Below, one piece after another: positions 16,680-43,156 of a stretch of DNA of 64,000 bases (positions within the stretch are counted from its first letter, which is position 1; each line of letters opens with the position of its first letter). The notes beneath the pieces are model-generated. The model was not told where the DNA came from. It searched no databases and saw nothing but the letters and a program-made list of their open reading frames with translations. The DNA lies in the NCBI GenBank assembly GCA_001897355.1, contig MKST01000007.1:449707-513706 (forward strand). The letters run 5' to 3'. The position numbers and the translations under genes are program-made. The stretch is from Solirubrobacterales bacterium 67-14. GTDB taxonomy: Bacteria; Actinomycetota; Thermoleophilia; Solirubrobacterales; 70-9.

Positions 16680-17261
16680 TCAGGCGCGATGAAAGTGCAG
16701 CAGGGTGAGCTCGGTCTTCTCGAGCTCTTCCGGGGCGGACCTGGCACGCGACTGTTCTTGAAGTGCCAGACCGAATCCGATCAGGCGCTCGAGTTCGGCC
16801 CCTAACTGCCGGAACGCCTCGTCGTCGAGATCGAGGGGATTCCAGACGACGCTGGCCCGGGGATCCTTGAAGCCCTCTGCGCCCGCTTCCGCAACGTGGT
16901 CCCAAGCTTGCTTCAGCGTCTGGTCAAAGATCCGGTCGCGCATGCCCTGGGGCAGGCTCTCCCACTCGGGGGCACTGAGTGCCGGCAGCATCGTGTGCCG
17001 GTAGAAGTGCTCGAGTGCGCCCCGGACCGGCTCGGTCCTGACCAGTTCCACCGCCTCGCACTTGACCAGGATCTTGAAGTGATAGCTGACGTTACTCAGC
17101 GGTTCGTCGATCTCCTTCGCCACCTGGCTGGGGCTGGCCACCCGATCGTAGAGGACCTGGAGAATCCTCTGGCGCAGGGGATGTCCCAACGCCTTCAGCA
17201 CGTTGACGTCAACGGTCGCTTGCCGCTCAGCGGCAGCCGCCTTCGAGGCACTTTTGGCCAT
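16680..17261 (-). CDS. ArsR-type winged-helix transcriptional regulator
   Basis: A DNA-binding regulator of 193 residues. The N-terminal winged helix (about residues 15-85) reads VLKALGHPLRQRILQVL, then SPSQVAKEI, and the recognition segment PLSNVSYHFKILVKCEAVELV, an ArsR/HTH_20 pattern. There is no metal-binding CxC motif, so the signal is not an obvious metal. The C-terminal half is helical and matches the same region in two paralogues at 41146-41817 and 42053-42685. It lies 3' of the peptide ABC importer operon with a 141-base gap and may be transcribed alone. Targets unknown. Confidence 0.85.
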   Translation of the reverse strand: MAKSASKAAAAERQATVDVNVLKALGHPLRQRILQVLYDRVASPSQVAKEIDEPLSNVSYHFKILVKCEAVELVRTEPVRGALEHFYRHTMLPALSAPEWESLPQGMRDRIFDQTLKQAWDHVAEAGAEGFKDPRASVVWNPLDLDDEAFRQLGAELERLIGFGLALQEQSRARSAPEELEKTELTLLHFHRA

Positions 17262-17402: not shown

Positions 17403-18368
17403 TCAGGTCCGATCGGGCCGCGGATCGGCGGCCCGGAAGGCGAGGTCGGTGACGAGGTTGAGCAGGACCATAACGAGCGCGGCAACGAGCACGAGGCCTT
17501 CAATCACTGGCAGGTCAGATTGGTTGATCGAAGAAGTGACCGCTGATCCGGCCCCGGGCAGGTTGAACACCGTTTCGACCAGGATCACGTTGCCGGCCAG
17601 AATCAAGCCGAGGTCAAGGCCGGCCAGACCGAGGATCGGGGTGAGCCCGGTGCGGGCGGCATGCCGCCAGACGACGGTCTGTTCACCGAGCCCTCTGGCC
17701 CTTGCGGCGAACACGTAGGGCGCCCGGAATTCACTCCTCATGGCCGACCGGGTCAGGCGATAGTAGATGGCGGCCGAGGTGAGTCCGAGGACCAGCACCG
17801 GGAGGATCATCGCCGCGAGCTTGCCGGCGGCTCCCTGCGCATCCTCCCACCCCCCGATCCCGGGCAGTACCGGCAGGAGGCCGACGCCGGCGCCCAGCAC
17901 GAAGATCGCGACGTAGCCGGTCCAGAAGATCGGTGCCGAGATCAGCAGTAGCGACAGACCGCCGGCCAGGCGGTCCCCGGCGGTGCGGCTGTAGCTCGCC
18001 CCGATCACCCCGCCCAGTACCCCGGCGGCGAACCAGACCAGCGCAGCCCCGAAGACCAGCAGCGCGGTGACCGGCAACCGGTCGGCGATCAGGCTCCGGA
18101 CCTCGGTGCCCGACCGGGCGCTTTCACCGAGGTCAAAATGCAGCAAGAGGTCACGGACGTAGATCCCGAACTGGACGTACACCGGCCGGTCGAGTCCCAT
18201 CTCCGACCGGACCCTCGCGATCTGGTCGGGGGTCGCGAACCGTCCGATCCGGAGCGTGGCCGGGTCACCGGAGGGCAGCACCTGGAAGATGAGGAAGACC
18301 AGGAGCACCGCGAAAAAAGCGAAGAAGACTGCCCAGGCCAGCCGCCCCAATATGAACCGTGCCGACAC
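17403..18368 (-). CDS. Peptide/nickel-type ABC importer permease (DppB-like)
   Basis: One of two inner-membrane permeases of a peptide-type ABC importer, 321 residues. DppB-type traits are the N-terminal helix, then VLPSGDPA, MGLDRPVYVQFGIYVRDLL and the late ETVFNLPGAGSAV. The cytoplasmic ATPase-contact loop lies in RLTRSAMRSEFRAPYVFAARARGLGE (split here only by description of its start and end). It begins 1 base after the substrate-binding-protein stop and is the last gene of the transport operon. Confidence 0.92.
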   Translation of the reverse strand: MSARFILGRLAWAVFFAFFAVLLVFLIFQVLPSGDPATLRIGRFATPDQIARVRSEMGLDRPVYVQFGIYVRDLLLHFDLGESARSGTEVRSLIADRLPVTALLVFGAALVWFAAGVLGGVIGASYSRTAGDRLAGGLSLLLISAPIFWTGYVAIFVLGAGVGLLPVLPGIGGWEDAQGAAGKLAAMILPVLVLGLTSAAIYYRLTRSAMRSEFRAPYVFAARARGLGEQTVVWRHAARTGLTPILGLAGLDLGLILAGNVILVETVFNLPGAGSAVTSSINQSDLPVIEGLVLVAALVMVLLNLVTDLAFRAADPRPDRT

Positions 18369-18369
18369 C

Positions 18370-20157
18370 TCAACCTCCCTTCAGGGAGATCATCGGCAAC
18401 GCGGGGGTCGTCGCGGAGCGTTCCAGGACCAGGTTGACGTTGGCAGAGCTGAGGTAGGAGATGTTCAGCCAGACGATCGGGACTGCCGGCGCCAGGCCCG
18501 TTATCTGCCGGTCGATGCGGCCCCAGCTTTGCGCTCTCGCTTCCTCTCCGGTCACCTGCTTGGCCCGATCGATCGCACGGTTGACCGCCGGCACGTCGAG
18601 TAGCGACCAGTTCGAGTTGTTCACGGGCATGATCGCCGCGCCGTTGAAGGTCGGGTCGAGCACGGTCTGGCCGTCCCCGAACTGGCCTACCCAGCCGACG
18701 TCAGGACAGACCGCGACCCGCTTGGCCGGCACGTTGCAATAGGTGGAGTACATCGTGTCCCGCGAAACCTGGACTTCGTCCACGTCGATACCGAGCGACT
18801 CGATCGCCTGGCGCAGGATCTCGGCGAAACGCTTCCCCTGGGTGGTCGTGTCGGTCACCATCACGGGCCGCGCGTCGCCGTCATAGCGGCCGGACGGATA
18901 GCCGGCTCGCCGCATGTACCGGGCGGCCAGCGCGGGGTCTCCCTCCGGAGCGCCGAGGAAGTCGAAACCTGGCCCGGCCACGCCGCCTGCCTCTTCGAAA
19001 CCAGCGACCTCCGGGGGCAGGAAATGAGTGGCAAGGTTGCCGACCGTCTTCCCGCCGATGGCCAGCCGCATGGCGTTGCGGTCTGTTGCGGCGATCACCG
19101 CCCGCCGCACGTTCGGGTCGTCGAACGGCGGCACCTGGGTGTTCAGGCTCGAATAGAGGGCCGCGCTCGAAGGCGCGATCATGAGCTGCTGTGGATACTC
19201 GGTCGCGGCGCTTTCCAAGGCGAGTGGCGGCGGCGGGATGTCGCCGCTCACCATCGACGTCCCCGAAAGGATCTGACGCGACGCGGCCAGCGGGTTCGTG
19301 TAACCGCTCTCCAGATCGATCTCGTCCAGGTAGGCCGGGCGGAAATCGCTGGCCGGCTCCCAGTTGGGGTTGCGGACGAGGGATATGGAGGCCCCTGGTT
19401 TGTACCCGGTCAGCTTGCCCGACGCGTCCTCGGCGACCATGTAGGGACCGCTTGCGACAACGTGGTCACCGTACGCCGACGGAATCGAGCGGTCATAGGG
19501 TCGGGCGTAGGCGCGTGGCACCGGCGCCGTGACCGGGAGAGTGAGCGCAGCTTGGGCGAGCGGCGGCACCGATCCCTTGAACCTGAAGACGATCAGGTTC
19601 GGCGAGGGGCAGCTGATCCCGGCAATGACCGGGGCCCGATGAGGATGCAGCCGTGCCCCCTTCCGGGCCCGCCCCAGGCCTACCAGGCCGTCGAGATAGG
19701 TCACGATCTCGCCGTTGGCCACCCCGGGCATCAGTGACCGCTCGATCGCGTACCTGACGTCGTCGCTGCGAACCCGGCGGTTGACCGGCGGCGAGAAGCG
19801 CACGTCGTCGCGGAGCCGGACCCGCATCACTCGGTGATCGGCATCGACCTCGGGCATCCCGTCGGCCAGGTCCGGCATCAGGGCTGAGCTCGACTCGGAC
19901 GAGATCGCGAGCGGCGCCCGCTGGGTTGCGAAGACCAAGATGAAGGTCGACTGGTTGATCGCCTGGCCGGGGTCAAGCGGTCCGAAATCCCCGTTTCCCA
20001 GGACTCGGAGCCGTCCGCCACGCACCGCGTCAGAGGTGGGCTGGTATCGCGGGGCAAAGTCTTCGGGACCTGAGCCAGAGGATCCGTCGCCGCATCCGGC
20101 CGCCGCGAACGTGCATGCGGCCAGACAGGCCAGCGATGTCACGACGTACTTCTTCAC
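18370..20157 (-). CDS. Peptide-type ABC importer substrate-binding lipoprotein (SBP family 5)
   Basis: The extracytoplasmic binding protein of the importer, 595 residues. The N terminus is a lipoprotein signal with lipobox AAGC (about residue 22), so the mature protein is membrane-anchored. Family-5 features are LDPGQAINQSTF, VRLRDDVRFSPP and DDVRYAIERSL, plus a large C-terminal lobe. The GTG at 20157 overlaps the stop of the upstream permease gene (GTGA) and places the lipobox correctly; the frame is open further upstream without meaning. Ligands are likely oligopeptides, given four secreted X-Pro-peptidase-like enzymes nearby, but this is inference. Confidence 0.9.
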   Translation of the reverse strand: MKKYVVTSLACLAACTFAAAGCGDGSSGSGPEDFAPRYQPTSDAVRGGRLRVLGNGDFGPLDPGQAINQSTFILVFATQRAPLAISSESSSALMPDLADGMPEVDADHRVMRVRLRDDVRFSPPVNRRVRSDDVRYAIERSLMPGVANGEIVTYLDGLVGLGRARKGARLHPHRAPVIAGISCPSPNLIVFRFKGSVPPLAQAALTLPVTAPVPRAYARPYDRSIPSAYGDHVVASGPYMVAEDASGKLTGYKPGASISLVRNPNWEPASDFRPAYLDEIDLESGYTNPLAASRQILSGTSMVSGDIPPPPLALESAATEYPQQLMIAPSSAALYSSLNTQVPPFDDPNVRRAVIAATDRNAMRLAIGGKTVGNLATHFLPPEVAGFEEAGGVAGPGFDFLGAPEGDPALAARYMRRAGYPSGRYDGDARPVMVTDTTTQGKRFAEILRQAIESLGIDVDEVQVSRDTMYSTYCNVPAKRVAVCPDVGWVGQFGDGQTVLDPTFNGAAIMPVNNSNWSLLDVPAVNRAIDRAKQVTGEEARAQSWGRIDRQITGLAPAVPIVWLNISYLSSANVNLVLERSATTPALPMISLKGG

Positions 20158-21062
20158 CGGCTCAGTACCACCTGGCGGACACGCCGCTCCGTCGTCGGTT
20201 CCTCCGTCCGCAAGGCGTCGGCCACGACCGTGAAGGAGACGACCGTGATCAGTAGCGCCACCCCGGGTGCGACCAGATACCACCAGGCGTCTGGGAAGGA
20301 AGCGGCACCGGCCGAGATCATGGCGCCCCAGCTGGGCGTCGTCGTCTCCACCCCAACCCCGAGGAAGGTAAGCGCCGCTTCGGCCATCACGGCCTGCGGG
20401 ATCAGGATCGCCAGGAAGACAGCCAGGGTTCCCGAGAGGTTCGGCAGGACGTCGGCGACGAGGATCCGCCGGGTAGGGATTCCGGCCGCCTGGGCAGCCT
20501 GCACGAAGTCGGCCCGCCTCAGGGTCGCGACCTGGCTACGGACGACCCAGGTGACGATCGGCCAGCTCGCCGCCACGATCACCACGACGACCAGCGGGAT
20601 ACCTGGTTTCAGGGCGCCGCCGACACAGCCTTGACCGACCGAGCAACTGGAGGCGATGCCTGCGGCCAGGACCAGGTAGGGGATGATCAGGAATGCTTCG
20701 GCCAGCCTCGAGATGATCCAGCCGAGGGTGCCACCGCGGAAGCCGGCCAGCAGGCCGAGCGAGGCGCCGATCAGGATGGTCAGCAGCGCGGCCGGCACGG
20801 CGACCAGCATCGCCACCCTGGCGCCGTAGATGGTGCGACTGAGCACGTCCCGCCCCAGACCGTCTACGCCGAGGGGATGACCGGCCTCGGGACCGGCCGG
20901 GGTTCCAAAGACGGGCGAGAGCGCCGAGGTGTCGCGGAAGTTCGGGCCGGGCAGGCCGAGCACGGAAACGAGCAGGGGCGCAAAGATCGCCACCGCGAGT
21001 ATTAGGCAGATCATCCCGAGAGCCAGACGGACCGAACGCTTCACCCCTGCAACTCCTCCCAT
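20154..21062 (-). CDS. Peptide/nickel-type ABC importer permease (DppC-like)
   Basis: The second permease of the importer, about 302 residues. DppC-type traits are the short N-terminal helix and the periplasmic segment HPLGVDGLGRDVLSR, followed by IYGARVAMLVAV. The EAA-type loop ends QAAQAAGIPTRRIL, and ALTFLGVGVETTTPSWG lies near the end. The ATG at 21062 begins MGGVAGVKRS; a GTG at 21044 with GGAGG about 9 bases upstream may be the true start. First gene of the minus-strand operon, divergent from the ATPase genes. Confidence 0.92.
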   Translation of the reverse strand: MGGVAGVKRSVRLALGMICLILAVAIFAPLLVSVLGLPGPNFRDTSALSPVFGTPAGPEAGHPLGVDGLGRDVLSRTIYGARVAMLVAVPAALLTILIGASLGLLAGFRGGTLGWIISRLAEAFLIIPYLVLAAGIASSCSVGQGCVGGALKPGIPLVVVVIVAASWPIVTWVVRSQVATLRRADFVQAAQAAGIPTRRILVADVLPNLSGTLAVFLAILIPQAVMAEAALTFLGVGVETTTPSWGAMISAGAASFPDAWWYLVAPGVALLITVVSFTVVADALRTEEPTTERRVRQVVLSR

Positions 21063-21138
21063 TGCCTGTCGGCACCCATATTAGAGACTGTGCCGTTCTT
21101 CATCCCACCCCGGGCCGTCGTAGGCTCCCCGGAGACCA

Positions 21139-21945
21139 ATGTCCGAAAGAAGCGAACCGATCCTTGTCGTGAACGGCCTCAACCTGTGGCTGGGTCGGGA
21201 CCGTGCCCATGTGGTGCGGAATTTGGATCTTTCCGTGGGCAAGGGCGAGATCCTGGCGATCGCCGGGGAATCCGGCGCCGGCAAGACCCAGGCGGCCGCC
21301 AGCCTGATCGGCCTGGGTGGGAACGGCACTGCGGCCGCGGCCACCGGTCGGATCACCTTCGACGGCGAAACGATCGAGGCCGGTGACTTCAACCGCCTGG
21401 CCCGATTGCGAGGCCGGGGAATGTCGATGGTGACCCAAGAGTCAATGGCTTCGCTCACCCCGGTCCGGCGGGTCGGGGACCTGCTTTCCGAGACGCTCGG
21501 ACAGGTCGGGGGCGGCGAGCAGGGCGAGCGGGCTGCCGAGCTGCTGACCGAAGTCGGATTCGACGACCCGGACCGCGTGCTCACCTCATTCCCACACGAG
21601 CTCTCGGGCGGCATGCGCCAGCGCGTCGCCTTCGCGCTCGCGCTCGCCGCCGAGCCCCGCGTGCTGATCGCCGACGAGCCGACCACCGCCCTCGACCTGC
21701 GCCTGCAGGCGTCGCTGATGTCCCTGATGAGCCGGCTGCGGAATTCCAGGGGAATGTCGATCCTGCTGATCACCCACGACCTGGCCGTGATCGCCCAGTT
21801 GGCGGACCGGGTCCTGATCATGCGGCAGGGAAGCCTGGTCGAGTACGGGCCGACGGACCAGCTTCTTGCCGATCCCACCGAGCCGTACACCCGGCAACTG
21901 GTCGAGCAGAACCGTCACCGGAGGCGGGGCCTTGTCACTGCTTGA
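21139..21945 (+). CDS. Peptide-type ABC importer ATPase 1 (DppD-like)
   Basis: ATP-binding subunit, 268 residues, cytosolic. Walker A is GESGAGKTQ, the signature LSGGMRQRVAFALALA, Walker B VLIADEPTTALD, and the H-loop ITHDLAVIAQLADRVLIM. The C-terminal segment PTEPYTRQLV is typical of the oligopeptide family. GGAG sits 4 bases before the ATG. The end overlaps the next ATPase gene by 14 bases. Confidence 0.93.
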   Translation: MSERSEPILVVNGLNLWLGRDRAHVVRNLDLSVGKGEILAIAGESGAGKTQAAASLIGLGGNGTAAAATGRITFDGETIEAGDFNRLARLRGRGMSMVTQESMASLTPVRRVGDLLSETLGQVGGGEQGERAAELLTEVGFDDPDRVLTSFPHELSGGMRQRVAFALALAAEPRVLIADEPTTALDLRLQASLMSLMSRLRNSRGMSILLITHDLAVIAQLADRVLIMRQGSLVEYGPTDQLLADPTEPYTRQLVEQNRHRRRGLVTA

Positions 21946-22768
21946 GGTATCCGCCCTGACCGTCGCGTTCGAGGCCTCGCGCCGGTCGGAGCCAGAGGTC
22001 ACGGCAATCGCCAATCTCGATCTCGAGATCGGGGCCGGCGAGGTGCTGGCCCTGGTCGGCGAATCGGGTTCCGGCAAGACCACCCTGGCCCGGTCGATCG
22101 TCCGGCTGGTCGATCCGACCCACGGGAGCATCCGCTTCGACGGGGTCGAACTAACCGGTCTCGGGGCCAAGGAACTGGCGGCGGTCCGAGGCCGGATCGG
22201 CTTCGTTATGCAGGATTCGGCTACCGCGCTCAATCCTCGACGGCGCCTCCTCTCGTCGGTTTCCTCACCGCTCGACTCGCAGCGGTCGGTCAGCCGTAGG
22301 CAGAGGGAAGGGCTGGCTCGAGAGGCCCTTCAGCGGGTCGGCCTTCCTGCTGATTTCGGCGAGAAACAGCCCGGCGAGCTTTCCGGCGGTCAACGCCAGC
22401 GGGTCTCGGTTGCCCGGGCGATCGTAACCGGGCCGGACCTGCTGATCTGCGACGAGCCGCTGGCCGGCCTCGACCTGATGACCGAATCGCACATGCTGCG
22501 GGTGCTGAAGGAGGTGACCCATGACACCGCCTGCCTGTTCATCACCCACGACCTCTGCCTCGCGGCGGAGATCGGCGACCGGGTCGCGGTCATGGAGCAG
22601 GGGCGCATCGTCGAGGAGGGACCGGCCGGGGAGGTGCTTTCCCGACCGGCCCATCCACACACGCGGGCACTGATCGAAGCGATCCCGCCGGCCGATCCTG
22701 ACTCGGCCTGGCGGGATCGCCATGGGATCGTCAGATCCGTTCAGCCGCCGTTCGAAGCAGCCACGTAG
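21932..22768 (+). CDS. Peptide-type ABC importer ATPase 2 (DppF-like)
   Basis: The second ATPase, 278 residues. Walker A is GESGSGKTT, the signature LSGGQRQRVSVARAI, Walker B LLICDEPLAGLD, and the H-loop ITHDLCLAAEIGDRV. The C-terminal AHPHTRALIEAIP is the hallmark of DppF/OppF. The TTG at 21932 is chosen because GGAGG lies 7 bases upstream; the frame extends upstream only into the previous gene. The end overlaps the convergent hydrolase gene by 28 bases. Confidence 0.92.
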   Translation: MSLLEVSALTVAFEASRRSEPEVTAIANLDLEIGAGEVLALVGESGSGKTTLARSIVRLVDPTHGSIRFDGVELTGLGAKELAAVRGRIGFVMQDSATALNPRRRLLSSVSSPLDSQRSVSRRQREGLAREALQRVGLPADFGEKQPGELSGGQRQRVSVARAIVTGPDLLICDEPLAGLDLMTESHMLRVLKEVTHDTACLFITHDLCLAAEIGDRVAVMEQGRIVEEGPAGEVLSRPAHPHTRALIEAIPPADPDSAWRDRHGIVRSVQPPFEAAT

Positions 22769-38704: not shown

Positions 38705-39136
38705 TCAGACTTCCGAGAGTCGCTTGGCCAACTTCCTTCTGGCTCGGCTGAGCCGGACTTTCGCCGCCGTCTCGCTGATTCCAAGCCGCACGGCCACCTG
38801 AGGCTGGGTCAGGTCCTCTACGTAGCGGAGCCCCAAGATCTCCTGATCAGCTTCGCTGAGCGAAAAAAGTGCTGCTTGCAGCTCCGCTCCCTCGACCAGA
38901 TCATGAAGCCGGTAGTCCTCCTCGCCACGATCCTCGAACTCTTCCACCGGGGTCGGAAGCTGGCGTTCCAGCCTCCGCAGCGCCTTGTTCTTCGTGATCT
39001 GCCCCAACCACTCGGCCCACCGGTCTGGGTCGCGGAGCTTCGACCGGCTCCGCCAAGCCTGTACCAGCGCCTCCTGGGCCACGTCTTCCGCATCCAACGA
39101 ATTTTTCGCATACCTCTTCGCCACTCTCAGAGCCAA
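38705..39136 (-). CDS. RNA polymerase sigma factor, sigma-70/ECF-like, short N terminus
   Basis: Directs RNA polymerase to a promoter subset. The region-2 core is DAEDVAQEALVQAWR and continues to WAEWLGQITKNKALRRLE. Region 4 is LSEADQEILGLRYVEDLTQ, with the helix-turn-helix PQVAVRLGISETAAKVRLSRARRKL. From the TTG at 39136 there are 143 residues, shorter than usual ECF factors, and the first helix of region 2 seems to begin at the start codon. The frame stays open for about 17 codons upstream with region-2-like residues (WDWEQARVLALRVAK) but has no ATG, GTG or TTG. No anti-sigma factor is adjacent. It is divergent from the methyltransferase of the peptide cassette. Confidence 0.82.
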   Translation of the reverse strand: MALRVAKRYAKNSLDAEDVAQEALVQAWRSRSKLRDPDRWAEWLGQITKNKALRRLERQLPTPVEEFEDRGEEDYRLHDLVEGAELQAALFSLSEADQEILGLRYVEDLTQPQVAVRLGISETAAKVRLSRARRKLAKRLSEV

Positions 39137-39209
39137 AACACGAGCCTGCTCCCAATCCCAAGATTCGTTCGATGTAACGGTTCTCGGCCCTCAACGGATC
39201 TTTACCGGT

Positions 39210-40013
39210 ATGAGCACTTCGTACGAACAAGATCATGCCCCAACTCGGGAGGCCTATGACCTCCTTTCCACCCACTACGACGAGCTGACCGAACACCACC
39301 TCTACGAGGAATGGTTCGACCGGCTCATCCCCGCGTTGGAGAAGGAAGGACTGACGGGGAACCGCCTCCTTGACCTGGGCTGCGGCACCGGGAAGAGCAC
39401 CTTGCCGCTCCTGAGGCGTGGCTGGCGGGCAACTGCGGTCGATCTCTCCCCGGGAATGCTCGCGCAGCTCAAACGCAAGGCCGGCGCCCAAATCGAGACC
39501 CTCGAGGCAGACATCGCCGACCTCCGCGTGCTCGGCGAGTTCGATCTCGTGCTGAGCCTCGGCGAAGCGATGAACTACAGCGCTGCGGAAGGTGGCTTCC
39601 AGGCGGCGTTAGATGGCGTGGCCAGGAACCTCGCCCCAACCGGACTGGCGCTGTTCGACCTGAACACCCTCCATAGCTACGAAACCTTCTTCGCCCAGAC
39701 CGAGGTGAAGCCCGCAGGCGGAGTCACCACCACCTGGACCGGCCAAGTGAGGGGCGAAGCCGAGCCCGGCGACCTGGCGATGGCCGTCATGGAGTTCACC
39801 TCGCCCGATGGACAGCATCTCAGCACGATCCATCGCCAACGGCACGTCAGCGAACCCGACGCCATAGCCGCCCTGAATGCCGCCGGCCTGGAATGCGTCG
39901 CGGTCTATGGACACGACTACTCCGGCGTGCTCGAGCAGCCGCTCGATCAGAGGCGCCACAACAAGGGGATCTTCATCGCAAAGCCTTGCAACCAAGCAGA
40001 GGAGAGGAGGTGA
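39210..40013 (+). CDS. Class I SAM-dependent methyltransferase
   Basis: A soluble methyltransferase of 267 residues. SAM-binding motif I is LLDLGCGTGKST (about residue 52). The acidic motif II equivalent follows in ATAVDLSPGML, and FDLVLSLGEAMNY serves as motif IV. The N terminus YDLLSTHYDELTEH is typical of the UbiE/CypM-like group. The substrate is unknown. It is the first gene of a tight three-gene unit: its stop lies 6 bases before a 20-codon reading frame, which overlaps the ThiF-type gene. A role in tailoring the small peptide is inferred from this arrangement. The ATG at 39210 is chosen; the frame extends upstream into the divergent sigma-factor gene. Confidence 0.85.
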   Translation: MSTSYEQDHAPTREAYDLLSTHYDELTEHHLYEEWFDRLIPALEKEGLTGNRLLDLGCGTGKSTLPLLRRGWRATAVDLSPGMLAQLKRKAGAQIETLEADIADLRVLGEFDLVLSLGEAMNYSAAEGGFQAALDGVARNLAPTGLALFDLNTLHSYETFFAQTEVKPAGGVTTTWTGQVRGEAEPGDLAMAVMEFTSPDGQHLSTIHRQRHVSEPDAIAALNAAGLECVAVYGHDYSGVLEQPLDQRRHNKGIFIAKPCNQAEERR

Positions 40014-40019
40014 ACACAC

Positions 40020-40082
40020 ATGAAGCTCCGCAAAGTCGAGAAGCCGATCGCGCCGCGCCCCTCATTCCAGAAGGGGTTCTGA
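40020..40082 (+). CDS. Candidate 20-residue precursor peptide
   Basis: A short reading frame encoding MKLRKVEKPIAPRPSFQKGF. The support for translation is unusual. The sequence AGGAGGTGA, a full match to the 16S 3' end, lies 6 bases before the ATG. The frame fills the gap between the methyltransferase stop and the ThiF-type start, and its TGA overlaps the ThiF ATG (TGATG). The peptide is basic (seven Lys/Arg) with a Pro-rich centre and an aromatic C terminus. Peptides this small next to ThiF-like enzymes occur in microcin C7 (MccA/MccB) and in pantocin-like RiPPs, so this may be the modified substrate. Alternatively it is a non-functional coupling leader. Confidence 0.6.
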   Translation: MKLRKVEKPIAPRPSFQKGF

Positions 40083-41233
40083 TGAACGGGGGTGACCGTC
40101 TGGGGACGCCCGGACGGTCACTTGACCGTGTTCGGCTGAAGCGATCGGTCGACTGCCTGCCCACCGGCGACGGCAACGTCCAGCTCCTCCACGACGGACT
40201 GGAAGAGCAGTACGAGATCGACCGGCCGGAAGCTCGGGATCTGATGCTCCTGAAGCTTCTACGGACGGGCTTCATAAGCGAGGTGGAGATCTGCGACCGC
40301 CTGCGAGAGGAAGGATTCGCAACCGAGACGGTCGCCCGGTCGCTGGCCAACCTGGAGGAGACGGGTCTTCTGGAACGCGACCGGGGACGGGAACTACTCA
40401 CCGAGGAAGAGGCCGAGCGATTCGACCGGCAGCTGATCTACCTCGCGGATGTCGCGCCCGCGGACCAGAGCGCGTGGGAGATGCAGGCCCGGCTGGGACG
40501 ATCTCACGTGGTCGTGCTCGGTTGCGGTGGGCTTGGCTCGTGGGCCGCCACCGGGCTCATGCTGGCCGGGGTCGGGCGGCTCACGCTGGTCGACGACGAC
40601 ACGGTCGACCTCAGCAACCTGAACCGACAACTGCTCTTTCGCAAGTCGGATATCGGATGCCAGAAAACCCGCGCGGCAAGGCGATCACTGACCGCGGTCA
40701 ACCCCGGCCTCGAGGTCGATACCGTCGAGAAACGCGTCGAAACCTCGGCCGAAGTCGCGGAACTCGCGACCGAAGCGGACTTCCTGGTGATGACCGCGGA
40801 CCATCCCCCGTATGAAGCCTTGAGGATCGTAAATCGTGCCTGCCTCGCGACAGGAACTCCGTGGATAAGTGCCGGCCAGATCCCGCCGACGATTCGGATC
40901 GGACCGGTAGTCATTCCCGGAAAGACTCCGTGCCATGAATGCCAGGAACGCGCCTTCAGACGGGACTATCCGGGTTACGAGACGCTGATCCGCCACCGGA
41001 CCGACAACCCGGCCAACGCGGCCACACTCGGCCCGGCTTCAGGCGCGATCGGGTCGCTGATCGCGATGGAGGCGATCCACCACCTGACCGGCGCCGTCAG
41101 CCCGGCCACGGCCAGCCGGGCGATGATGATGGACCTGCGGACCCTTCAGGTCGACTTCGAGCCAGTCGAGCCTGACCCCGACTGCGATTGCCGCGAATTG
41201 TCACGCGGAGCCGGCACTTTCTTGATGGGGTAG
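40082..41233 (+). CDS. ThiF/MccB-type E1-like adenylyltransferase with N-terminal RRE-like domain
   Basis: 383 residues. The N-terminal 110 or so residues resemble a winged-helix peptide-clamp (RRE/PqqD-like) domain: LLKLLRTGFISEVEICDRL, then VARSLANLEETGLLERDRG. The E1-type domain follows: GCGGLGSWAATGLMLAG (nucleotide loop, about residue 146), LVDDDTVDLSNLNRQLLF, the QKT lysine, and TADHP for the catalytic Asp. Two Cys pairs for structural zinc are CHEC (about 284-287) and CDC (about 367-369). This is the build of MccB and PaaA, which activate a small peptide by adenylation. The coupled 20-residue peptide supports that role; the product is unknown. The 3' end overlaps the convergent regulator gene by 88 bases. 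Confidence 0.85.
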   Translation: MNGGDRLGTPGRSLDRVRLKRSVDCLPTGDGNVQLLHDGLEEQYEIDRPEARDLMLLKLLRTGFISEVEICDRLREEGFATETVARSLANLEETGLLERDRGRELLTEEEAERFDRQLIYLADVAPADQSAWEMQARLGRSHVVVLGCGGLGSWAATGLMLAGVGRLTLVDDDTVDLSNLNRQLLFRKSDIGCQKTRAARRSLTAVNPGLEVDTVEKRVETSAEVAELATEADFLVMTADHPPYEALRIVNRACLATGTPWISAGQIPPTIRIGPVVIPGKTPCHECQERAFRRDYPGYETLIRHRTDNPANAATLGPASGAIGSLIAMEAIHHLTGAVSPATASRAMMMDLRTLQVDFEPVEPDPDCDCRELSRGAGTFLMG

Positions 41234-41817
41234 AGCATCGTGTCGATCTCCACCAGCCGTGTCTTGCTCTCCCGCTCCTCCGGGTCAAGCGCCGCAAGCC
41301 GCTGCTCGGCGCCGCTCTCCAAGGCCATTATCTCGTACACGAAGGAGGCGACCTTCCGGCTTGCCTCCGTGAACCCTTCCTCGTCCAGCGACACGACGTT
41401 CCAGGCGATCGCGGTGCGGAGGTCCTTGAGGCCCTCGTCATCGGATGCCGCCCGCACGTTGCTCCAAATTTGCTGAAGCGTTTCGTCGAGCAAAGTCTCC
41501 CGGACCGGCTCCGGCATGTGACGCCAGTTCTCCTCGTCGGCCACCGCCCGGACCTTGGCCCGGTACAGATGGATGACCGTGGTGCCCACGATCTCCTTCC
41601 TTACCAGCTCGATCGCATCGCACTTCTTGAGGATCCTGAAGTGGTAGCTGACCGTGTTCACCGATTCACCGATGATCCGCGCGACCTCACTCGGACTCGA
41701 CTCCTCATGCTCGGTGAGCACGTGAAGGATCCTCTGCCGGATCGGATGCCCGAGCGCCTTCATGAGCTTCACGTCGACCGTGGTCCGATCCTGCTCAGAT
41801 TTCACGCCTTTGCCCAT
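41146..41817 (-). CDS. ArsR-type winged-helix regulator, paralogue 2
   Basis: 223 residues from the ATG at 41817, which has GGAG 5 bases upstream; longer upstream frames lack support. The winged helix is VKLMKALGHPIRQRILHVL, SPSEVARII, then NTVSYHFRILKKCDAIELV. The helical C-terminal part (ENWRHMPEPVRETLLDETLQQIWSNV, given here in two family-typical pieces) closely matches the next gene. There is a Ser/Gly-rich tail. Its last 88 bases overlap the end of the ThiF-type gene on the other strand, so high expression of one could interfere with the other. Candidate regulator of the peptide cassette. Confidence 0.85.
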   Translation of the reverse strand: MGKGVKSEQDRTTVDVKLMKALGHPIRQRILHVLTEHEESSPSEVARIIGESVNTVSYHFRILKKCDAIELVRKEIVGTTVIHLYRAKVRAVADEENWRHMPEPVRETLLDETLQQIWSNVRAASDDEGLKDLRTAIAWNVVSLDEEGFTEASRKVASFVYEIMALESGAEQRLAALDPEERESKTRLVEIDTMLYPIKKVPAPRDNSRQSQSGSGSTGSKST

Positions 41818-42052
41818 CTTCGCTCCAGACTCTCCAAAAATTGCTTCCCATACTTGCTCCGACGCTCCTCGAAGCCGCGGACGGCGGAGGAGTTTCAGAA
41901 CAGATGGTGACACACGGAGCAAACGTTTTGACCGCTCAAGCATTCTTTTGCCAAATTCAGCGGCCAATCCGGGGGTCGAATTGGGTGCGACTCAGCAAGT
42001 CTTGACCGAACCGCGAGAGATTTCGTCGAGGCTACCGAGGCTTGCCTGGCTG

Positions 42053-42685
42053 CTATTGCCGAGGCCTCTTCGAAGGGGTCGGCAACTCGGGGATGGGGTA
42101 GAGCATCAGGTCGAGCTCGACCAGGTTCGTCCTGGCCTCGCGCTCCTCCTCGTCCAGCTCGGCGAGCCGTTGCTCGGCGCCGATCTGCAGCGCGAGTGCC
42201 TCTTCCGTGAATTCACCCACCATCCGGCTTAGTTCAGCGAATGCCTCGTCGTCCAACTTCAACGGAGACCAGGCGGCTGCGGTGCGCAGGTCCTTGAGAC
42301 CGTCGCCCTCGGAGGCCGAACGCACGTTGCTCCAGATCTGCTGGAAAGTTTGGTCCAACAGAGATTCTCGAACGTTGTCGGGGATGTTTCGCCAGTTGTC
42401 CTCGTCCACCACGGCCCGGACCTTCGCCCGGTAGAAGTGCTCGACCGAACTGCCAGACACCTCGGCACGGACCAGCTCGATCGCGTCGCACTTGACCAAA
42501 ACCCGGGCGTGATAGCCCACGTTGGTCAGCGGCTCGTCGATTGCCTGGGCGATCTGACTCGGACTGGCCTCCTCGGAACGAGTGAGCTCCTGCAGGATCC
42601 GTTGCCGAACAGGGTGCCCGAGCGCCTTCATCAGCTTGACGTCGACGGCGGGTTCGTCCTGTTTGAGACCAGCGGCTTTGCTCAT
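42053..42685 (-). CDS. ArsR-type winged-helix regulator, paralogue 3
   Basis: 210 residues. The winged helix reads VKLMKALGHPVRQRILQEL, SPSQIAQAI, PLTNVGYHARVLVKCDAIELV. The C-terminal part NWRNIPDNVRESLLDQTFQQ and the ending NLVELDLMLYPIPELP match the neighbouring paralogue (RLVEIDTMLYPIKKVP). The two genes are therefore a local tandem duplication, while the third copy at 16680 is more distant. The ATG at 42685 has AGGA upstream; a TTG two codons earlier is possible. A TTGACA/TACGTT promoter with a palindrome lies about 310 bases upstream. Confidence 0.86.
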   Translation of the reverse strand: MSKAAGLKQDEPAVDVKLMKALGHPVRQRILQELTRSEEASPSQIAQAIDEPLTNVGYHARVLVKCDAIELVRAEVSGSSVEHFYRAKVRAVVDEDNWRNIPDNVRESLLDQTFQQIWSNVRSASEGDGLKDLRTAAAWSPLKLDDEAFAELSRMVGEFTEEALALQIGAEQRLAELDEEEREARTNLVELDLMLYPIPELPTPSKRPRQ

Positions 42686-43156
42686 CTTCAATCCTGTCTT
42701 TGGGTGGGATCCGGACCGGACTTTTCCTTACGCTCTGCGGTGAGCGCAACCGCCGGCCGTCGATGCAGTTTGGCGGAGGCTAGGACAAGCATCAAGGTCG
42801 GTGGCCTGTCGCTACTTTCTGGAGCGAATTCTGCTTCACCGTGTGGCAACTCTCAGTGATCCGATCCGCTTTCCGAAGCCGGGCGTTGCAGATTTCATCT
42901 GTGACCGGCAGCATCGCCCTACCTCCGAGACCGGAAGAGAAATCCGGAGTCGATGCCGACGGTCAACAGACGAACCTGCGAATTGCAGGTAGTCAAAACG
43001 TACTAGTACGACACGACGTTGTCAATTCTCTCGTTCGCTCAGGGTAATCTGACCGAGCCTTGTCCAACTGCGAGACTCCCAGTTGCTTAGTAGGCGTTAC
43101 GTACATGGGCGTTTTGAGTATTGACGTGGCTGCCCGGGACATCTTGCATCTGTGGG
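42686..43156. other. 471-base region between regulator and HTH gene, mostly non-coding
   Basis: No gene is supported. It holds the promoter and palindrome at 42997-43025 on the minus strand and the unproven start region of the plus-strand gene at 43157. The stretch 42690-42990 shows no clear structure. Confidence 0.5.
42997..43025 (-). promoter_or_regulatory. Putative promoter with 12-bp palindromic operator
   Basis: On the minus strand, TTGACA (43020-43025), 17 bases, TACGTT (42997-43002). The perfect palindrome cgtactagtacg (42999-43010) overlaps the -10, the place a repressor would bind. It faces the ArsR-type gene at 42685. Confidence 0.45.

Follow-up and report, generated by a model that had tools for sequence, protein, structure and literature searches.

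The locus analyzed here lies within the window, a 64,000-nucleotide stretch of the genome of Solirubrobacterales bacterium 67-14 (G000:C7:449707-513706), and consists of three genes that follow one another closely on the forward strand. The first of them (39210..40013, + strand; ATG at 39210, TGA at 40011-40013) encodes a 267-residue class I SAM-dependent methyltransferase (PF13649, E 1.4e-17), and its stop codon is overlapped by a ribosome site, AGGAGGTGA (40005..40013, + strand), with a spacing of 9 bases between AGGAGG and the following ATG. That ATG (40020), 6 bases past the methyltransferase stop, opens a 20-codon frame (40020..40082, + strand; stop at 40080-40082) encoding the putative precursor peptide MKLRKVEKPIAPRPSFQKGF, of calculated pI 11.2. 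The peptide stop is overlapped in turn, as TGATG, by the ATG (40082) of a gene for a 383-residue RRE-fused E1-like adenylating enzyme of the ThiF/MccB type (40082..41233, + strand; TAG at 41231-41233), hereafter E1. The coordinates thus confirm the gene order reported in the initial annotation, which had proposed this cassette as a candidate new RiPP or microcin-C-like pathway. Divergent from the methyltransferase gene lies a gene for an ECF-type sigma factor (38705..39184, - strand; Sigma70_r2 and r4, sigma70-ECF), the start codon of which is uncertain, the first usual start being TTG at 39136 and the homology extending to about 39184. On the other side, a gene for an ArsR-like winged-helix regulator (41146..41967, - strand; HTH_20, E 9e-12), given here as its longest frame and with a likely start near 41817, is convergent with the E1 gene and overlaps its 3' end, and a second ArsR-like regulator gene (42053..42691, - strand), whose product is 61% identical to the first, lies beyond it. 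A third ArsR-like paralogue (16680..17261, - strand) adjoins a set of Dpp/Opp-type peptide ABC importer genes (permease, binding protein, permease and two ATPases; 17403..22768), of which the binding protein gene lies at 18370-20283 (SBP_bac_5, E 5.2e-43); both the paralogue and the importer are possible distant parts of the same system.

Judged from the window sequence alone the peptide would be doubtful, since a GTG codon (40010) in the E1 frame, to which the initial annotation did not refer, overlapping the methyltransferase stop and with AGGAG five bases upstream, allows E1 to start ahead of it. Among the 232 genomes of the order, E1 matches (E <= 1e-45) number 29 in 28 genomes, and a methyltransferase gene adjoins E1 at 13 of those loci (12 genomes), a count that leaves out L045 (methyltransferase fragment 1.2 kb past E1), L063 (broken E1) and loci repeating the same contigs. 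A frame of 19-21 residues lies between the two genes at 12 of the 13, preceded every time by a ribosome site (weak at L049), and the expectation that a short frame would consistently precede homologous ThiF genes is to this extent borne out; at the remaining locus (G199) E1 comes directly after the methyltransferase, with no peptide in between. All 12 peptides carry a lysine at position -3 and two prolines are usual, examples being MKPQEIKKPATPRSAIQKGG (G011), MPSIKKLDTRVIPALSVTKSA (G047), MLNIETIDRPIIPDASIWKGG (G120) and MLKIVKIEEETLPVASLVKNG (G077). A strict scan for 18-23-codon frames with a ribosome site was positive for 10 of the 13 intervals, all with Lys -3, versus 0.8% of first-order resampled intervals with such a frame and 0.03% with such a frame and Lys -3. 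The mean BLOSUM score per column over 14 peptides (L124 was left out of this test) was 1.2 in frame, 0.14 and 0.59 in other frames and -0.6 to -0.9 downstream. As regards selection at the protein level, by which the initial annotation had proposed to judge the frame, conservation in frame does exceed that of other frames and flanks, but the codon-position test is clear in one trio of relatives only, with values of 0.26, 0.20 and 0.49 at positions 1-3; the third-position excess is absent over all pairs (0.54, 0.53, 0.48), in another trio (0.45, 0.41, 0.35) and in the pair formed by the window and G011 (0.53, 0.18, 0.29), probably because divergence is saturated. Conservation, the frame test and the random expectation together rule out a chance frame, and on this comparative evidence the 20-codon frame is a real, conserved gene.

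Lysine -3 is present in 16 of 16 peptides, comprising the 12 just described, two further peptides beside a methyltransferase alone, in G201 and G223, that emerged from a methyltransferase search, and two in distant genomes, and sequence comparison identifies it as their sole invariant side chain. No Lys requirement was imposed in scanning the intervals between methyltransferase and E1, where a few other short frames (at L037, L046 and L059) were disregarded, as were longer in-frame starts, or in reading the distant genomes; in the scan of methyltransferase loci, short frames lacking the motif were discarded at L180, L182, L187, L190 and L194. Peptides found with the help of the motif (G067, G068, G072, the second copy in G201, and G198) are excluded from this count. 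The C-terminal residue, by comparison, varies (F, G, A, S, M, N, V, I) and is Asn in 3 of 21 peptides; that of the window does not end in Asn, as the initial annotation had stated. Gly at -1 is not conserved, several peptides ending in Gly-Gly or Gly-X, and the one peptide of the 21 with a Cys has it near its start. The peptide of several relatives (L038 and L049, for instance) terminates well ahead of the E1 domain.

Outside the order, near whole-length E1 matches are three, L101, L111 (in G466) and L112, from a class sample of 399 and a phylum sample of 396 genomes, and the remaining matches cover the ThiF domain or somewhat more. A methyltransferase, a peptide (MDFIKEIEKQVNPAEIIKNI or MTIEKDEKKVQASEIIKNI), E1 and an MFS-type transporter occur in this order in G466, a distant genome of the phylum sample (GC of the examined stretch 0.58), and in G842, one of 140 genomes of the G466 family, the transporter being assigned by Pfam in the former and judged by eye in the latter. 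L101 and L103 have upstream frames ending in ...PISKA and no methyltransferase, and L112 shows no obvious peptide. In Streptococcus gallolyticus (L072), MKKVAEVKSFSEKEKMGSC, E1 and an MFS-like gene (by eye) form a locus in which no methyltransferase was seen and which resembles described streptococcal pathways.

Within the order, no peptide was found beside E1 at loci lacking the methyltransferase, either by a short-frame scan or by an all-against-all comparison, the matches of the latter being read as echoes of coding frames and rejected. The scan of L031-L073, for short frames with a ribosome site that end in Lys/Arg-X followed by a small residue, F, M or N, returned 27 rows, of which 16 are cassette peptides and 11 are unlike frames elsewhere, set aside by eye. 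A profile and motif search placed likely precursors away from E1 in G067, G068 and G072; the profile contrast, between the 28 E1 genomes and 28 others, is not independent, since the E1 genomes contain the training peptides. The sole full-model profile hit among the 28 control genomes (G198, E 0.012) is a good peptide beside an ArsR-like gene, which indicates that the profile generalizes. Since G198 is among neither the 28 genomes with an E1 match nor the 52 with a methyltransferase match, modification may be optional there; the whole-genome protein searches scored only the best candidates per genome (5-11), so that absence from a genome is not proven.

The E1 protein matches PF00899 (E 1.7e-53), and its GCGGLG stretch (147-152) and residues D171, D173, N179, R182, Q183, K195 and D240 align with identical residues of MccB. 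It has two Cys pairs, C284/C287 and C368/C370, the second of which is CxC in the window and in G011 and CxxC in the other 8 of the 10 aligned cassette enzymes. In the AF2 model (mean pLDDT 91.9, pTM 0.90) approximately residues 17-99 form a predicted N-terminal RRE-like domain, with strands at 17-46 and helices at 51-62, 67-76 and 84-93. The N-terminal domain, intact adenylation site and paired cysteines ascribed earlier to this protein are thereby borne out. A profile of 28 E1 relatives, compared with the PDB, ranks MccB first (213.8 bits) and PaaA second (193.5), ahead of ThiF (170.3) and MoeB (163.3), and its alignment with PaaA spans 6-349, N-terminal domain included. Foldseek, queried with the model, also returns MccB and PaaA on top, with near whole-length matches, and a single-sequence search gives MccB, then MoeB, then PaaA. 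E1 further passes the cut-off (36.9) of TIGR03882, the leader-binding E1-like domain of TOMM pathways, with 44.9 bits. A TOMM/YcaO pathway was nonetheless ruled out: none of 9 cassette genomes gave a YcaO (PF02624) hit, with 5 of 14 control genomes positive, and the absence of YcaO argues against an azol(in)e pathway despite the leader-binding match.

The methyltransferase, modeled with a pLDDT of 87.5, belongs to class I; its best NCBIfam match, daptide_MTase (NF041820), scores 67.9 bits and does not reach the cut-off of 175. Its nearest structures in Foldseek are two uncharacterized methyltransferases, followed by C-methyltransferases (PsmD) and the cypemycin N-terminal methyltransferase CypM, with amino-sugar N,N-dimethyltransferases (among them TylM1) ranking lower. 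The family (E <= 1e-45) occurs in 28 of 28 E1 genomes versus 24 of 204 others (Fisher p 4e-22, uncorrected for kinship), and these 24 of the 52 genomes bearing it, lying outside the E1-matched set, speak against a strictly shared pathway. Members of the family are also found at loci without a peptide, and in genera g9 and g11 the methyltransferase and E1 occupy separate loci. Methylation of the peptide by this predicted enzyme is plausible.

The genes that surround the cassette point to a regulatory context. A divergent ECF sigma homologue adjoins the methyltransferase at 11 of the 13 loci, and one of the other two ends at a contig edge. The window genome has three ArsR-like paralogues (E <= 1e-4), all inside the window and two of them next to E1; relatives number one in G011, three in G047 and seven in G077, and in all three of these other genomes searched the closest homologue is 1 kb or less from the cassette. 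Peptide copies away from E1 are found in G201 (two), G067, G068, G072 and G198, with a methyltransferase near one of the G201 copies and near that of G067. An ArsR-like gene, searched for with the window query, is present at five of these six loci versus 0 of 29 weak-hit loci (Fisher p 2e-5); other loci with a ThiF domain have it in 0 of 24 cases, and long E1/cassette loci in 7 of 10. The sixth peptide locus (G067) has a different divergent frame, winged-helix-like by eye and with no Pfam match. A Dpp/Opp-type binding protein is encoded within 1.5 kb of the methyltransferase or E1 at 5 of the 13 loci (G011, G047, G077, G081, G082) and about 19 kb from the cassette in the window, the closest relative of the latter adjoining the G011 cassette. 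The importer link is weaker, since this family occurs in 90 of the 232 genomes (best candidates per genome scored). No exporter was noticed by eye in the frame lists beside the cassettes of the order. The claim that none is adjacent holds in the window, where no MFS exporter lies next to E1 and the neighbors are the sigma and ArsR-like genes, but it does not extend to the two distant relatives, in which an MFS-type gene (by eye in G842) follows E1.

Comparison of genomes establishes, then, that the genes of a methyltransferase and of a predicted RRE-fused E1 with intact adenylation residues flank a conserved gene for a peptide of about 20 residues. The product of this mini-operon is probably a modified peptide, and it may be sensed by the neighboring regulators. 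On balance, and with nearly as much doubt as confidence, we lean towards the view that these cassettes form a new ThiF-type family of RiPP pathways, the product of which would be closed as a lactam at Lys -3, methylated, exported, re-imported and read by ArsR-like proteins as a signal or regulatory peptide. In such a pathway the RRE-like domain would hold the N-terminal half of the peptide while E1, with ATP, would adenylate its C-terminal carboxylate, and the invariant lysine would attack the adenylate to yield a small Lys-to-C-terminus lactam. The methyltransferase would add methyl groups, perhaps onto an amine. Once exported, the product would re-enter through a peptide ABC importer and be recognized by the ArsR-like regulators encoded next to the cassette, expression of which would be turned on by the ECF sigma factor. 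The lactam is the simplest product because Lys -3 is the only side chain that never varies; C-terminal amidation, nucleotidylation or Lys methylation may occur instead, and the lysine could also be where the peptide is methylated or cut by a protease. A signal or regulatory peptide is more likely, on genomic evidence, than a microcin-C-like toxin, given the regulators and the sigma factor, the pairing of peptide and ArsR-like genes at loci away from E1 and, to some extent, the importer. More tentatively, a cell-cell or self-sensing system might be envisaged, in which a methylated 20-mer pheromone, cyclized by E1 at Lys -3, would be imported by the ABC system and read by ArsR-like receptors, some lineages having several peptide/receptor pairs per genome that share one tailoring set; this possibility we would put well short of an even chance.

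The toxin is nonetheless the alternative that survives best. It would have E1 join the peptide C-terminus to a nucleotide, giving a Trojan-horse antibiotic that would be exported and then enter competitors through their peptide importers, and it draws on MccB being the closest solved fold to E1, on the MFS-type gene after E1 in G466 and G842 and on MccD of microcin C, which is likewise an enzyme of class I methyltransferase fold (PMC12250964). We consider it unlikely in view of a C-terminal Asn in only 3 of 21 peptides, lengths of 18-21 residues instead of a heptapeptide, the ECF sigma and ArsR-like neighbors and the lack of an exporter noticed by eye next to the order's cassettes; strict microcin C is ruled out, its Asn not being conserved. 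Together with a Dpp/Opp-type binding protein at 5 of 13 loci, these observations leave the microcin-C-like label of the initial annotation less supported and the comparison doubtful. The interpretation was right in kind, the cassette having the arrangement of a new ThiF-type RiPP: a conserved 20-mer linked with an MccB/PaaA-like, RRE-fused E1, a precursor in which the motifs of described precursors are absent. A peptide-derived cofactor or small metabolite, akin to PQQ or mycofactocin, with the peptide as scaffold and its C-terminal part excised and used in the cell, would agree with the very short conserved precursor, the RRE enzyme and the lack of a noticed exporter beside the order's cassettes, but it fits poorly with peptide genes beside regulators away from E1 and with a variable C-terminal residue; nor was any recurrent peptidase or oxidase neighbor noticed by eye, as opposed to by family search, and we hold this reading to be rather improbable. 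Less probable again is a carrier of the ubiquitin or ThiS type, whose activated C-terminus would become a thiocarboxylate or be joined to another protein. The Gly-Gly or Gly-X ends of several peptides and the E1 fold with its Cys pairs recall such systems, but a beta-grasp carrier needs more length than a 20-mer offers, Gly -1 is not conserved, and E1 has an N-terminal RRE-like domain that ThiF and MoeB are not known to have. Finally, that there is no peptide at all, E1 starting at GTG 40010 behind its in-frame AGGAG and the 20-mer being a chance overlap, can be dismissed as extremely improbable, contradicted as it is by the 12 of 13 relatives that keep the peptide, by the strict scan set against its 0.8% expectation per interval and by L038 and L049, where the peptide stops well ahead of the E1 domain.

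If the RiPP reading is correct, the ThiF-type RiPPs described by experiment, few as they are, gain both a further lineage and a further type of precursor. Among the literature matches listed (open-licence PMC), none deals with a cassette of this kind in the Solirubrobacterales. The substrate pattern is now defined, with a length of about 20 residues, Lys at -3 and, in most cases, two prolines, allowing cheap synthesis and tests with a single purified enzyme. Should the regulator link hold, the product would be an E1-modified signal peptide, and no peptide-signalling paper for this actinobacterial group is among the matches listed; the ArsR-like proteins would then have a peptide, not a metal, as their ligand.

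For a signal peptide, the nearest parallel is the Rgg/SHP signalling of streptococci, whose peptides enter the cell by Opp-type import. There, too, a short peptide gene adjoins the gene of its regulator (PMC13361665). The putative signaling cassette differs in having an ArsR-like regulator in place of Rgg and an E1 and a methyltransferase linked to the peptide.

Among RRE-fused E1 enzymes, microcin C7 provides a tiny gene-encoded peptide, MccA, a heptapeptide with a C-terminal Asn, on the C-terminus of which MccB acts; the peptides described here differ in their 18-21 residues, in their invariant Lys -3 and in having genes for a methyltransferase, an ECF sigma factor and ArsR-like proteins next to them. 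PaaA of pantocin A is the second closest solved relative of E1, with the N-terminal domain aligned, and the Glu-Glu-Asn core of its precursor is absent from the peptides of this cassette. Described RRE-E1 enzymes adenylate a carboxylate, which a nearby nucleophile then attacks (PMC12150305 and a review, PMC12250964). The minimal RRE-E1 pathway of IndF and IndA is the closest case in this respect, its C-terminal carboxylate, once adenylated, being trapped by the side chain of a residue three positions earlier, Trp6 to Ile9 (Org Lett 2025, PMC12150305); it differs in its Trp nucleophile, in the M16 peptidase and transporter of its cluster and in the NWYFI motif of IndA, which the window peptide lacks. 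GrcB and the enterofaecin enzyme EnfB are likewise of the RRE-E1 type and have short precursors as substrates (EnfA has 21 aa), from which they form either a thiolactone with Cys or, at WWIVI, a C-terminal imide (PMC12250964); such precursor ends are absent here, the single Cys among 21 peptides being near the start of its sequence. The capture proposed for the cassette would thus resemble those for which Trp (IndF) or Cys (GrcB) is described as the nucleophile, with Lys -3 taking its place.

An ArsR-like winged-helix regulator gene follows each of the genes for the conserved precursor peptide of about 20 residues both in locus L217 of genome G201, at about 5.7-7.7 kb in the locus, and in L245 of G198, at about 1.5 kb. 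At the thresholds used (E <= 1e-45), G198 yielded no match to either the RRE-fused ThiF/MccB-type adenylating enzyme (E1) or the SAM-dependent methyltransferase (MT), and the peptide/regulator pair may therefore exist without these tailoring enzymes. ArsR-like genes also lie near MT paralogues that have no adjoining E1 or recognised peptide, in 6 of the 19 MT-only loci (L177, L180, L184, L187, L190 and L194).

In the window, the divergent ECF-type sigma factor frame (38705-39184, minus strand) has TTG 39136 as its first usual start codon, and its homology extends further upstream, so the gene either begins at an unusual codon or the sequence contains an error.

Within a different family of the class, frames ending in ...PISKA occur upstream of an E1-like gene that lacks an MT (L101/L126 in G451, L103/L125 in G378), the L101 frame being MRAARSRPSSISVVRIPLQPISKA; as judged by eye, a BTAD-type regulator-like frame is found upstream, near the E1-like locus of G451. 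The same RRE-E1 forms a second group in G027, G034 and G025 (L032-L034) and their relatives. There, again by eye, it lies near an MMPL-like transporter and a gene resembling a uracil-DNA glycosylase; the MT resides at a separate locus, and the precursors seem to be encoded elsewhere.
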